Source: Candidatus Nitrosacidococcus sp. I8 (GTDB lineage Bacteria; Pseudomonadota; Gammaproteobacteria; Nitrosococcales; Nitrosococcaceae). From it: a stretch of DNA of 64,000 nucleotides. Made by a program: the position numbers and the translations under genes. The DNA is taken from positions 558,001 to 622,000 of the forward strand of contig NZ_OX241534.1 of assembly GCF_945836005.1 (NCBI RefSeq), written 5' to 3'. The notes beneath the pieces are model-generated. The model ran no database searches, was not told the origin of the DNA, and was given only the letters and a program-made list of their open reading frames with translations. This document shows, in pieces, positions 40,463 to 46,012 of the stretch. The number at the start of each line of letters is the position of its first letter. Within the stretch, counting starts at the first letter, position 1.

Positions 40463-41296
40463 ATGAAACAGCGACAGGTCATTCAAACCGTACAAGGGCG
40501 ATCCACTTATGATGGTGCCGGAGTACACATTAATCGAGTGATGGGTACATCTCAATTACTTCAATTAGATCCGTTTTTATTATTAGATGAATTTAAATCT
40601 GATAATCCAAATGATTATATTGCAGGATTTCCCGATCACCCTCATCGAGGATTTGAAACCGTCACTTATATGCTTACAGGGCGGATGCGTCATAAAGATA
40701 ATCAAGGAAATAAGGGATTGTTGACTGCAGGTGATGTGCAGTGGATGACAGCAGGTCGTGGTATTGTTCATTCAGAGATGCCAGAGCAAGAAGATGGATT
40801 ATTGTGGGGTTTTCAGCTTTGGGTTAATTTACCAGCTCAAGATAAGATGACTGCCCCCCGTTATCAAGATATTCAATCAGAGCGTATTCCTATTTTTGAA
40901 GAAAATGGAGTAAAAGTAAAAGTGATTGCTGGAGAAATCAATGGCTATAAAGGACCTGTAGATGCTCCTACCACCCAGCCTATTTATTTGGATATGGAAT
41001 TACCACCTCAAGCTAGCTATAGCTTATCTTTGCTTGATCACTATAGTGCATTTATTTATGTTTATGTAGGATCTGCTCAAGTAGGTAACCCTATTAAAAC
41101 GATAAATCAAGGCACCCTTGCGGTGCTTGATTCAGGAAATACAATCACCATAACTACAACAGATGAATCTGCCAGATTATTATTTATCGCAGGTCAACCA
41201 CTTAAAGAGTCTATTGTGCGCTACGGACCTTTTGTCATGAATAGCAAAGAAGAAATCCAACAGGCACTTGCAGATTACCAATCGGGTATTTTATAA
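40463..41296 (+). CDS. Pirin family protein
   Basis: 277 residues, a bicupin. The N-terminal metal site is visible as PDHPHRGFETVTYMLTGRMRHKD with a downstream GDVQWMTAGRGIVHSEMP, the classic pirin H-x-H and H/E ligand pattern. Bacterial pirins include quercetinase-like enzymes and regulators; nothing here decides between them. It stands alone with its own promoter region upstream. Confidence 0.9.
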   Translation: MKQRQVIQTVQGRSTYDGAGVHINRVMGTSQLLQLDPFLLLDEFKSDNPNDYIAGFPDHPHRGFETVTYMLTGRMRHKDNQGNKGLLTAGDVQWMTAGRGIVHSEMPEQEDGLLWGFQLWVNLPAQDKMTAPRYQDIQSERIPIFEENGVKVKVIAGEINGYKGPVDAPTTQPIYLDMELPPQASYSLSLLDHYSAFIYVYVGSAQVGNPIKTINQGTLAVLDSGNTITITTTDESARLLFIAGQPLKESIVRYGPFVMNSKEEIQQALADYQSGIL

Positions 41297-41445
41297 AAAA
41301 TTTTATAAGGGATTTTTATTTTCTGAGTTCAATATGACAAAAAACGACATTTTTAGTCATAACCTGCCTATTTAGGTCAGTAAAAATACCTAGTATTTCT
41401 GGGATAAAATACATAACTAATTGATTAATCTATTTAAGATAAAAT

Positions 41446-41461
41446 TGGCACGGTAATTGCT
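41446..41461 (+). promoter_or_regulatory. Sigma-54 (RpoN) promoter
   Basis: TGGCAC-GGTAA-TTGCT with GG (41447-41448) and GC (41459-41460) separated by exactly 10 nt, matching the -24/-12 consensus. Transcription should start near 41472. The only thing downstream before a terminator is the candidate RNA at 41472-41566. Confidence 0.8.
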
Positions 41462-41471
41462 TTATATTTTA

Positions 41472-41566
41472 TCGAGTACTAAAGTACTTGGTAAGATGGT
41501 TTTCAAAGGTAGCATAAATTGCCTTTGTTTTGGCTCCTAATCGTGGTGTATTAGGAGCCTTTTTTT
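41472..41566 (+). ncRNA. Candidate sigma-54-driven small RNA or attenuated leader
   Basis: About 95 nt between the predicted sigma-54 start and an intrinsic terminator, with no open frame of note. It folds by eye into three stems: 41473-41490 (7 bp, TAAA loop), CAAAGG 41504-41509 with CCTTTG 41522-41527, and the terminator stem GGCTCCTAAT 41532-41541 with ATTAGGAGCC 41550-41559, then seven T. The PEP-CTERM gene starts 228 nt beyond the terminator. It is either a free small RNA or a leader that must be read through. I recognise no known RNA family. Confidence 0.5.
41532..41566 (+). terminator. Intrinsic terminator of the candidate small RNA
   Basis: A 10-bp perfect stem, GGCTCCTAAT and ATTAGGAGCC, with an 8-nt loop followed by TTTTTTT. 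A strong classical terminator, 230 bp downstream of the pirin stop but only about 60 nt after the sigma-54 start. Confidence 0.9.
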
Positions 41567-41740
41567 GCTCAGAAAAAAATATCCTGTCTTTTTTTATTCC
41601 TATCAAAAATAAATCTCCCCTATTTTCCGCCTGCAACTAGCTTTTAAATAAATTTTTTGAGTTAAATTTCTCTACTTCCTTGATTATTTAAGATCATGAT
41701 CTATAGTTGACAATTGATATAATAAATACAAAATAGTGCA

Positions 41741-41758: not shown

Positions 41759-41793
41759 TGTTTTGTATCAATACACTATGGAGACTTGGATTA

Positions 41794-42645
41794 ATGAAAG
41801 TAACGAAAATATCTGCTGCACTCGCCTTGAGTACAGCTTTTACAATAAACGCTCACGCAGCCCCTTTAGTCTCAAATGGAGATTTTTCTCAGTCCACCTA
41901 TAGTACAGCCAGCCAAGTAGGCGATAGTGGTACCACATCTTATGGACAAGGACTCGCTGGCTGGACAGCGACTGGTTATACCATTTGGTATCCTAGCGTA
42001 CAGGATTCTATTGACGGACCAGTAGCCAATCAATTTACTAATGATACTGGCACATCTCCAGATAACGCTCAGAATTTACACTCTACTATGACAGGTACGG
42101 ATGCCAATGGAACTAGTATGAATATTGGTGCCTTTGTCGGGTTAGACGGAGATCAGACTCAGGATCAAGACTTTTCTAATGGGAATACTGTTCAAGCTTC
42201 TATCTCTCAGACGATCAATGGATTAACAGCTGGGCAAAACTATACTGTTAGCTTTGATTGGGGCGCAGCCCAACTACAAGGTCGTACTGGAAAAACTACT
42301 GAGCAGCTTCAAGTTTCTCTAGGTAATGTACCTCTATCTCCAAGTGGGACTCTCCCAAGTGGTGCTCAATCTACAGCTGTTCTTGATAATTCTAGTGGTG
42401 GATTCACTGGCTGGCAATCTCAATCTTTTACCTTTACCGCCCAAGGTGCTAGCCAAGTGTTAAGCTTTCTTTCTGTAGGTACTCCAGGCGGACTTCCTCC
42501 TATGGCAGTATTAGCTAATGTAGCTATGGTAGCGGATGTTACTCCTCCTAATAATGTGCCAGAGCCTGCTGCAATTATTTTATTTGGGACGGGGTTATTT
42601 GGATTAGCCTTCTTTATGCGTCGCTATAGCGCAAATTTATTATAA
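41794..42645 (+). CDS. PEP-CTERM sorting domain protein (paralog 1)
   Basis: 283 residues from ATG 41794 (GGAG at 41780-41783); an ATG at 41758 would spoil the signal peptide. The signal peptide ends at AHA. The mature protein starts LVSNGDFSQ and is Gly/Ser/Thr/Gln-rich, with GAFVGLDGDQT, FDWGAAQLQGRTG and FLSVGTPGGLPPMA shared with paralog 3. The C-terminal 29 residues are the sorting signal: PEP at 256-258, a hydrophobic span (ILFGTGLFGLAFF) and MRR. Such proteins are cut by an exosortase and linked to the surface or exopolysaccharide. No exosortase gene is in this window. Confidence 0.92.
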   Translation: MKVTKISAALALSTAFTINAHAAPLVSNGDFSQSTYSTASQVGDSGTTSYGQGLAGWTATGYTIWYPSVQDSIDGPVANQFTNDTGTSPDNAQNLHSTMTGTDANGTSMNIGAFVGLDGDQTQDQDFSNGNTVQASISQTINGLTAGQNYTVSFDWGAAQLQGRTGKTTEQLQVSLGNVPLSPSGTLPSGAQSTAVLDNSSGGFTGWQSQSFTFTAQGASQVLSFLSVGTPGGLPPMAVLANVAMVADVTPPNNVPEPAAIILFGTGLFGLAFFMRRYSANLL

Positions 42646-43033: not shown

Positions 43034-43303
43034 ATGAGATCATCGAAAATATCTGTGGCACTTGTTTTGAGTACAATGCTTGCTAGTGCACATGCTATAT
43101 CTCCTCCTCTAGTTCAAAATGGGGATATCTTTGATACTGTTAAGATAAGCTCAATTCCTGTCAATGGTTCTATGCAGCTTGATTCTAAAAGCAGTAATGA
43201 TGGTTCTCCTTCTGTGCTAGAATCTGCTACAGTTACTCTATTTGGGACTGGGTTATTTGGATTAGCCTTCTTTATGCGTCGCCGTACCATTGATTTATCA
43301 TAA
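43034..43303 (+). CDS. Internally deleted PEP-CTERM-like protein (paralog 2)
   Basis: 89 residues with GGAGG 9 bp upstream of the ATG. It keeps a signal peptide (to AHA), the mature start LVQNGDI and a C-terminal 29-residue block nearly the same as paralog 1 (LFGTGLFGLAFFMRR). The central 170-190 residues are missing. The PEP motif has become LES, which needs only CCA to CTA and CCT to TCT. It may be a decaying copy or a small secreted protein that is no longer sorted. The last 45 bases of the membrane segment are almost identical to paralog 1, so the duplication is recent or under conversion. Confidence 0.75.
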   Translation: MRSSKISVALVLSTMLASAHAISPPLVQNGDIFDTVKISSIPVNGSMQLDSKSSNDGSPSVLESATVTLFGTGLFGLAFFMRRRTIDLS

Positions 43304-44205: not shown

Positions 44206-44657
44206 CTATAAAAACTCTAAGAGCTTTAGTCATTTTCTATTTTAATTTTTTATTTATTTTAAATTTTAGTCATAATTTTCAATTAGATATATTATCTAAG
44301 TATTTTTATATATGGTATCTGTTTTCTAATAGCCCAAAATTGATACTGACAAAAATAAGCAATCGTGCTTACCCAATAGAATATCTTTCTTAGAAGAAAG
44401 ATATTAACCTCATCATTATGATGAATAATTAGATCTTATCTTAAATAAGCTCAATAATTGGCTTTTTGTTACCATGAGCGTCACTGACAAAATAGATACC
44501 TAAATATGTACTTATAGGCGCATATTATCAATAAGTTATCAATTATAATTGATAATTAAGTATGTAATTATATTGTAATATATTGTAAATGGCACGAGTG
44601 TTGCTCTATATCTCAAGTAACTTTTTATGTAACTAAATGATATAGAGGTTAATCTCA
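44206..44657. other. Palindrome-rich regulatory region before PEP-CTERM paralog 3
   Basis: 452 bp, AT-rich, without a gene. It contains three perfect palindromes: AATATCTTTCTT/AAGAAAGATATT at 44380-44405 (12 bp arms), CATCAT/ATGATG at 44411-44423 and TTATCAATTA/TAATTGATAA at 44536-44555. A sigma-54 promoter follows at 44590-44605. The layout fits enhancer-binding-protein sites 35-210 bp upstream of an RpoN promoter. Confidence 0.6.
44590..44605 (+). promoter_or_regulatory. Sigma-54 (RpoN) promoter of PEP-CTERM paralog 3
   Basis: TGGCAC-GAGTG-TTGCT, with GG (44591-44592) and GC (44603-44604) exactly 10 nt apart; an excellent -24/-12 match. The predicted start near 44616 leaves a 42-nt leader before ATG 44658. 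Confidence 0.88.
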
Positions 44658-45455
44658 ATGAAACTATCAAAAATATATACAGCACTTGCTTTTAGCACGG
44701 TACTTGCCACTAGTGCCCATGCCAATTTAATTTTAAATGGTGATTTTTCTGATGCTGGTGGTATCACTACTCCTACTCAGTTTGGTACTGCAAGCGGTAA
44801 TGGCTATACAGCATCTAACTTTATTGCAAATTGGACTGGAAATGATGGCTATGAGATCTGGTACCCAAGCGCATCAGATGCGACTACCATGAATGCTACT
44901 GGACAATGGACTAGCACTGGTCAAGAAATGCTCTGGGGTCCTGTTGCTCCACCACCTAGTGGGAGTGGCTCGTTCGTAGGTCTAGATGGTGATCAGACAG
45001 CTGGTGTCCAATCTAGTATTAGCCAACAAGTCACAGGTTTAACAGCCGGCCAACAATATACCCTAACTTTTGATTGGGGTGCAGCTCAAATGCAAAGCCG
45101 TACCGGTGGTACCACAGAATTTCTACAAGTTTCTTTTGGTGATGATACACAATACACTGGTACTAATGGTGCACAAAGCACTATTCCTACAGGTAATGAT
45201 CTTTTAAACAACGCTTCTGAGGGCTTTACTGGTTGGCAGTCTGCAACTATGACCTTTACCGCAACTGCAACAAGCCAAGCCTTAACATTTCTTTCTGTCG
45301 GTACCCCAAGTGGGCTTCCTCCTATGGCATTACTCACCAATGTATCTATGGTAGCTAATCCTAGCGTGCCAGAGCCTTCTATGATGATGCTATTTGGTAC
45401 AGGATTGTTTGGATTAGCTTTCATAAGCCGCCGCTGTGCTGTTACGCTAGGGTAG
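44658..45455 (+). CDS. PEP-CTERM sorting domain protein (paralog 3)
   Basis: 265 residues with a signal peptide ending at AHA and a mature start LILNGDFSDAGG. It shares with paralog 1 the blocks GSFVGLDGDQT, FDWGAAQMQSRTGG, GFTGWQS and FLSVGTPSGLPPMA. The last 29 residues form the sorting signal: PEP at 238-240, LFGTGLFGLAFI and RR. It is likely to be an exported, surface-retained structural or matrix protein. The sigma-54 promoter just upstream fits the known RpoN/PrsK-PrsR control of PEP-CTERM genes in other proteobacteria. Confidence 0.93.
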   Translation: MKLSKIYTALAFSTVLATSAHANLILNGDFSDAGGITTPTQFGTASGNGYTASNFIANWTGNDGYEIWYPSASDATTMNATGQWTSTGQEMLWGPVAPPPSGSGSFVGLDGDQTAGVQSSISQQVTGLTAGQQYTLTFDWGAAQMQSRTGGTTEFLQVSFGDDTQYTGTNGAQSTIPTGNDLLNNASEGFTGWQSATMTFTATATSQALTFLSVGTPSGLPPMALLTNVSMVANPSVPEPSMMMLFGTGLFGLAFISRRCAVTLG

Positions 45456-45631: not shown

Positions 45632-46012
45632 ATGAAATTACCATTAGAGGTAACTTTTCGTGATACTGAATATTCACCTGCGGTGGAAGAAAATATAAAA
45701 GAACAGGCAGATAAACTACACCAATTCTATGAGGAAATTATTCGCTGTCATGTGATTGTAGAAAAAGGGGATAAACACCACAATCATGGCAATATCTACC
45801 ATGTAAGGATAGATTTGACTATTCCGGGAAAAGAGCTTGTGGTCAGTCGTGAGCCTGAAAAGAATCATGCCCATGAAGATGTCTATATTGCTATTCGAGA
45901 TTCTTTTCGAGCGATGCGCCGCCAACTAGAAGATCATGTACGCCGCCAGCGGGATCAGGGAAAGCATAGCAAAATATTACCTGATGAAGACGAGCAAGAT
46001 AAATCTTCCTGA
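45632..46012 (+). CDS. HPF/RaiA-family ribosome-associated protein
   Basis: 126 residues with the sigma-54 modulation protein/S30EA fold: LEVTFRDTEYSPAVEENIKEQADKL at the start, then CHVIVEKGDKHHNHGN, VRIDLTIPGKELVVSREP and YIAIRDSFRAMRRQLEDH. The family binds the small ribosomal subunit in resting cells. The His-rich HHNHGNIYHV and the basic tail (RRQRDQGKH) suggest a divergent branch. It is upstream of corA but separated by 97 bp. Confidence 0.82.
   Translation: MKLPLEVTFRDTEYSPAVEENIKEQADKLHQFYEEIIRCHVIVEKGDKHHNHGNIYHVRIDLTIPGKELVVSREPEKNHAHEDVYIAIRDSFRAMRRQLEDHVRRQRDQGKHSKILPDEDEQDKSS

Follow-up and report, generated by a model that had tools for sequence, protein, structure and literature searches.

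Exosortase/PEP-CTERM systems shape flocs and biofilms in many environmental bacteria. Their described control is transcriptional, through RpoN and PrsK/PrsR (PMC1569441; PMC9850573): upstream of 99 of 167 proteobacterial PEP-CTERM genes, Haft et al. found an enhancer motif and a -24/-12 motif, the promoter lying 23-221 nt from the start codon, and linked this arrangement to PrsK/PrsR (PMC1569441), and RpoN dependence has been demonstrated for a PEP-CTERM gene of Aquincola (PMC9850573). A small RNA under sigma-54 is also known from V. fischeri, where Qrr1 is common to quorum sensing and to the biofilm regulator SypG (PMC10162802). In D. vulgaris the regulator of an sRNA is not the one that governs the PEP-CTERM genes. 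The acid-tolerant gammaproteobacterial ammonia oxidizer Ca. Nitrosacidococcus tergens RJ19, with a genome of 1.8 Mb and 37% GC, forms flocs and biofilm (PMC8115276).

The locus described here lies in a 64-kb stretch of DNA (the window; bases 558001-622000, 37.4% GC) of a single-contig genome of 1,848,551 bp, which also contains RuBisCO genes. Judging from its promoter and the box upstream of it, we propose that the RNA gene in this locus is very likely a non-coding member of a PEP-CTERM sigma-54 regulon. The elements of the locus, in window coordinates, are as follows.

41334..41360, + strand: enhancer (UAS) box, dyad ATGACAAAAAACGACATTTTTAGTCAT holding TGACAAAAA at 41335-41343; shared with the regulon
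41446..41461, + strand: sigma-54 (-24/-12) promoter TGGCACGGTAATTGCT; exact consensus
41472..41566, + strand: predicted small RNA of about 93-95 nt; from the fold (z -4.62)
41472..41491, + strand: stem-loop 1, 8 bp, loop of 4; from the fold
41496..41540, + strand: 14-codon ATG ORF (MVFKGSINCLCFGS) with its stop inside the terminator 5' arm; in-frame tail of the ORF 41457-41540
41504..41527, + strand: stem-loop 2, 9 bp, loop of 6; from the fold
41532..41566, + strand: intrinsic terminator, perfect 10-bp stem, loop of 8, seven T; from the fold and a terminator scan
41794..42645, + strand: PEP-CTERM paralog 1 (DUF642 plus PEP-CTERM; PF04862, PF07589), the next gene downstream and a possible read-through target
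44590..44605, + strand: sister promoter TGGCACGAGTGTTGCT of PEP-CTERM paralog 3, with a TGACAAAA box at 44485
44658..45455, + strand: PEP-CTERM paralog 3, 52 nt past its own sigma-54 site

The promoter matches the -24/-12 consensus exactly: GG at 41447-41448 and GC at 41459-41460 are separated by ten bases. Exact TGGCACN5TTGCW sites number two in the window and three in the genome, where base composition leads one to expect 0.03 and 0.95, respectively. The window contains no rpoN gene, and rpoN of this genome was not located, the search having found rpoN only in a relative (G003). The predicted RNA start, 41472, is 12 nt past the C of the -12 element.

From 41472 to 41566 the sequence folds at -31.9 kcal/mol (z -4.62), a value equaled by none of 200 shuffles, into three stems (41472-41491, 41504-41527, 41532-41559), with seven T (41560-41566) directly behind the third. 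About half of this energy comes from the terminator, as the fold without it has -16.3 kcal/mol. With the terminator removed, stems 1 and 2 retain a z of -3.06 (41472-41531), or of -1.88 if transcription begins at 41474 (41474-41527); stem 1 has its two outermost pairs only if the start is at or before 41472. Since the score is weaker once the terminator is removed, we take the terminator as the solid element and the 5' stems as modest evidence. On the + strand there is no ORF of at least 30 codons within 41472-41566. The sole ATG ORF, that of 14 codons at 41496-41540, lacks a good Shine-Dalgarno sequence and is probably a chance occurrence, although a leader peptide is possible. The earlier note, read from the letters of the DNA, had described a -24/-12 site with exact 10-nt GG-GC spacing, two stems and a 10-bp terminator with seven T behind it, no coding sequence, and a like promoter directly before paralog 3, and all of these are borne out. 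The described feature is real and well formed, and it is likely that a short terminated transcript arises from the promoter at 41446.

What ties this gene to the surface proteins is the box upstream of its promoter, which the earlier note had not recorded and which is the strongest added evidence. The TGACAAAAA box of the RNA promoter is at -111, within its dyad, and that of paralog 3 is at -105. Nine PEP-CTERM promoters (844235, 845591, 993658, 1203356, 1292658, 1293859, 1356237 and 1437705 in the genome, and 44590 in the window) have a sigma-54 site close to TGGCAYN5TTGCT together with a TGACAA(AAA) box, and their sites mostly lie about 40-66 nt 5' of the start codons, with a few further away. 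Other sigma-54 sites precede a 54-codon hydrophobic ORF (1288780) and pilA (1550525). The count covered the nine PEP-CTERM promoters and the 1288780 site; pilA was left out beforehand, and so was the second gene of L062, whose weak site lacks a TGACA box. In the 200 nt preceding the -24 element, TGACAA occurred in all ten (dinucleotide shuffles give an expectation of 0.64) and TGACAAAA in seven (expectation 0.1). The chance of finding the box in the upstream region of the RNA is 1.3% for the 8-mer TGACAAAA and 0.7% for the 9-mer TGACAAAAA. A search of the window for a palindromic TGACA-N9-TGTCA box gave nothing useful. The genome encodes one exosortase, Hfq, and 16 PEP-CTERM matches, 14 of them over the cut-off. 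As to the proposal in the earlier note that the RNA is RpoN dependent and made together with the surface proteins, it gains strong support in silico from the same -24/-12 element and TGACAA(AAA) box before nine PEP-CTERM genes. The 1288780 site itself, on the minus strand, carries a GACAATATTTGTCA box, and the ORF behind it (MHSIIRLIVIMLVLVTAYFF...) is possibly a small membrane protein of the regulon.

Several further observations concern the PEP-CTERM genes and their surroundings. Between paralogs 1 and 3, at 43034-43303 of the window, is an 89-aa shrunken PEP-CTERM-like ORF that has kept a signal peptide and the C-terminal end, has lost the body of the protein and has no Pfam match. The PEP-CTERM gene 3' of the site at 844235 (genome 844235-845047) has a broken frame, its first ORF being 74 aa long, and its twin at 845591 is intact. 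Shortly 3' of paralog 3 lies a ribosome-hibernation/sigma-54 modulation gene (45632-46012, PF02482).

The RNA was also compared with other genomes and with known families. A DNA search of 59 relatives gave no homolog beyond short chance words, and the covariance search suggested in the earlier note, run with a single-sequence model, gave no homolog either in 63 genomes of the order, no congener among them and with no match at all in the family, or in 369 genomes of the class, where no match fell below 0.01. A contig scan with the neighboring pirin gene likewise turned up no congener. As such a model finds only close relatives and no congener was sampled, these results show only that the RNA is not widespread in recognizable form. 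Weak covariance matches in other families of the order (L079-L082) were taken as chance because the sequences look like coding ends and ordinary terminators. No Rfam family reached its gathering cut-off for 41472-41566; weak matches to Gram-positive sRNAs were far under the gathering scores, and Qrr was not among them. Predicted pairing of the free linker with the 5' regions of the regulon ranked no better than with background genes. The terminator loop (41541-41552) could form 12 pairs with the ribosome-binding region of paralog 1 (41770-41781); this match, considered as a target site or cis lock, was dropped because shuffled leaders reach at least 12 contiguous pairs in about 17% of trials. 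In a genome of the sister genus (G001; L190 1501-1830) a perfect sigma-54 site precedes some 300 bases that hold no sizeable ORF and have no Rfam match, possibly an unrelated non-coding RNA.

Three other explanations of the locus have to be weighed. That the -24/-12 sequence is a chance match and no promoter is hardly credible. Of the three exact genomic sites, that at 89265 does lie within a coding region, which is why the -24/-12 sequence alone is not decisive, but here the exact site is combined with the TGACAAAAA box and with a terminator at sRNA distance, and the pattern TGGCAYN5TTGCW, in which TGGCAT is also allowed, has 13 sites in the genome compared with none for the reversed control pattern. 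It is improbable, though less so, that 41532-41566 simply ends the transcript of the pirin gene, with the short RNA a functionless by-product and the sigma-54 site a relic of a former paralog 1 promoter severed by the pirin terminator. Pirin (40463-41296) is upstream on the same strand, from the pirin stop codon to the RNA the + strand scan came upon nothing that resembles a terminator, and no conservation was seen among the sampled genomes, which included no congener. Nevertheless, both the promoter and the enhancer box have kept their full consensus, which is not what one expects of a relic, and stems 1 and 2 beat shuffled sequences.

The most serious competitor, which we still consider rather unlikely, is an attenuated leader, in which the sigma-54 site would be the promoter of paralog 1 itself and the hairpin a terminator needing read-through. 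Control could then lie with a protein, or with a ribosome on the 14-codon ORF, which ends within the terminator 5' arm. The RNA is followed on its own strand by paralog 1 as the nearest gene, and no GG-N10-GC site occurs between the terminator and its ATG, as would be expected if the RNA were its leader, while the close paralog 3 has a -24/-12 site of its own. In the regulon leader at 844235, too, the ATG is preceded by a hairpin that resembles a terminator but is weaker, GCGTAATTTAAGAATTACGC-TTTTT, but the gene there is the frame-broken one and the leader of the intact twin at 845591 scores no terminator. An ORF as short as that of 14 codons is to be expected by chance, and this one lacks a good ribosome-binding site. 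The leader would span 322 nt, its fold showed no alternative antiterminator pairing, and a sigma-70-like promoter (TTGACA-16-CAAAAT, 41707-41734), of a kind common by chance, sits between terminator and gene. Moreover, paralog 1 would be an unusual target of the 41446 promoter, because the 332 nt from the sigma-54 site to its ATG (41794), with the terminator between, exceed the survey maximum of 221 nt. The position of the strong terminator, 60-95 nt past the start, also favors a free RNA. Both readings, sRNA and attenuated paralog 1 leader, were named in the earlier note; the sequence cannot choose between the two, and we give the free RNA about twice the weight. Both could hold, with a free RNA plus rare read-through feeding paralog 1.

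We therefore lean, by no wide measure, toward a trans-acting small RNA that RpoN and a shared enhancer-binding protein would turn on together with the PEP-CTERM surface proteins. Such a protein, at the TGACAAAAA-type box about 110 nt upstream, would activate the RpoN promoter at 41446-41461, which would yield an RNA of about 93 nt ending at the strong intrinsic terminator. As the same pair of box and promoter precedes at least nine PEP-CTERM genes, one and the same enhancer-binding protein would switch on both the RNA and the exosortase-sorted surface proteins, and the RNA would probably, as an Hfq-type small RNA, adjust mRNAs while the surface or biofilm program is on. Two features of Hfq-type sRNAs are present, namely an intrinsic terminator with a U tract and an Hfq encoded in the genome. 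The promoter sequence, the shared box, the regulon, the terminator and the fold are likewise seen directly, while transcription of the RNA, the action of RpoN and PilR on it and its action in trans are what we infer from them.

The candidate activators are three full enhancer-binding proteins encoded in the genome, one PilR-like (1551369), one a response regulator preceded by a kinase (798545) and one without a receiver domain (461948). The best of the three reaches 360 bits with the PrsR model (TIGR02915; cut-off 502.6), and with the LuxO model (NF041946; cut-off 800) they score up to 336. TGACA/TGTCA boxes are also found in the pilA promoter of this genome and in the pilin promoters of two sister-genus genomes. 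From these boxes, and with no PrsR at the cut-off, PilR, encoded near the pilin gene, emerges as the best candidate activator of the regulon. That the box is unlike the published motif ending in TTTACA likewise suggests, together with the lack of a recognizable PrsR, an activator other than PrsR, e.g., PilR. Since the pilin promoter, too, bears TGACA/TGTCA boxes, a PilR-type activator may have taken the place of PrsR in the surface program of this acidophilic ammonia oxidizer.

Public RNA-seq across pH is available for Ca. N. tergens (PRJEB95883). A co-regulated sRNA, if true, adds a second layer to the transcriptional control so far described for PEP-CTERM genes. It is conceivable, if somewhat doubtful, that the exosortase/PEP-CTERM program here has such a post-transcriptional arm, in the form of an sRNA under the same box and RpoN promoter.

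Among known systems, GlmY/GlmZ and CrcZ are other sigma-54-driven sRNAs; they are alike in sigma-54 control, whereas the RNA described here differs in size, neighborhood and genes and has no Rfam match to them. The PrsK-PrsR regulon of PEP-CTERM genes (PMC1569441; PMC9850573) shares with this locus an enhancer motif and a -24/-12 element before PEP-CTERM genes. In contrast to that regulon, the member considered here is non-coding, its box is TGACAAAAA rather than a motif ending in TTTACA, no PrsR reaches the cut-off, and the distance to the paralog 1 ATG is outside the range of the Haft survey. The closest parallel is offered by Qrr1 and SypG. Both there and here one finds an intergenic RNA of about 100 nt with a sigma-54 promoter, an enhancer box and an intrinsic terminator (the latter set predicted in our case), and in V. 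fischeri the enhancer-binding protein also runs an aggregation/biofilm program, a logic like the one we propose. Neither in sequence nor in activator is the RNA a Qrr, with no Qrr match in Rfam and no enhancer-binding protein at the LuxO cut-off; by analogy of its circuit, however, it would be nearest to Qrr1 under SypG.
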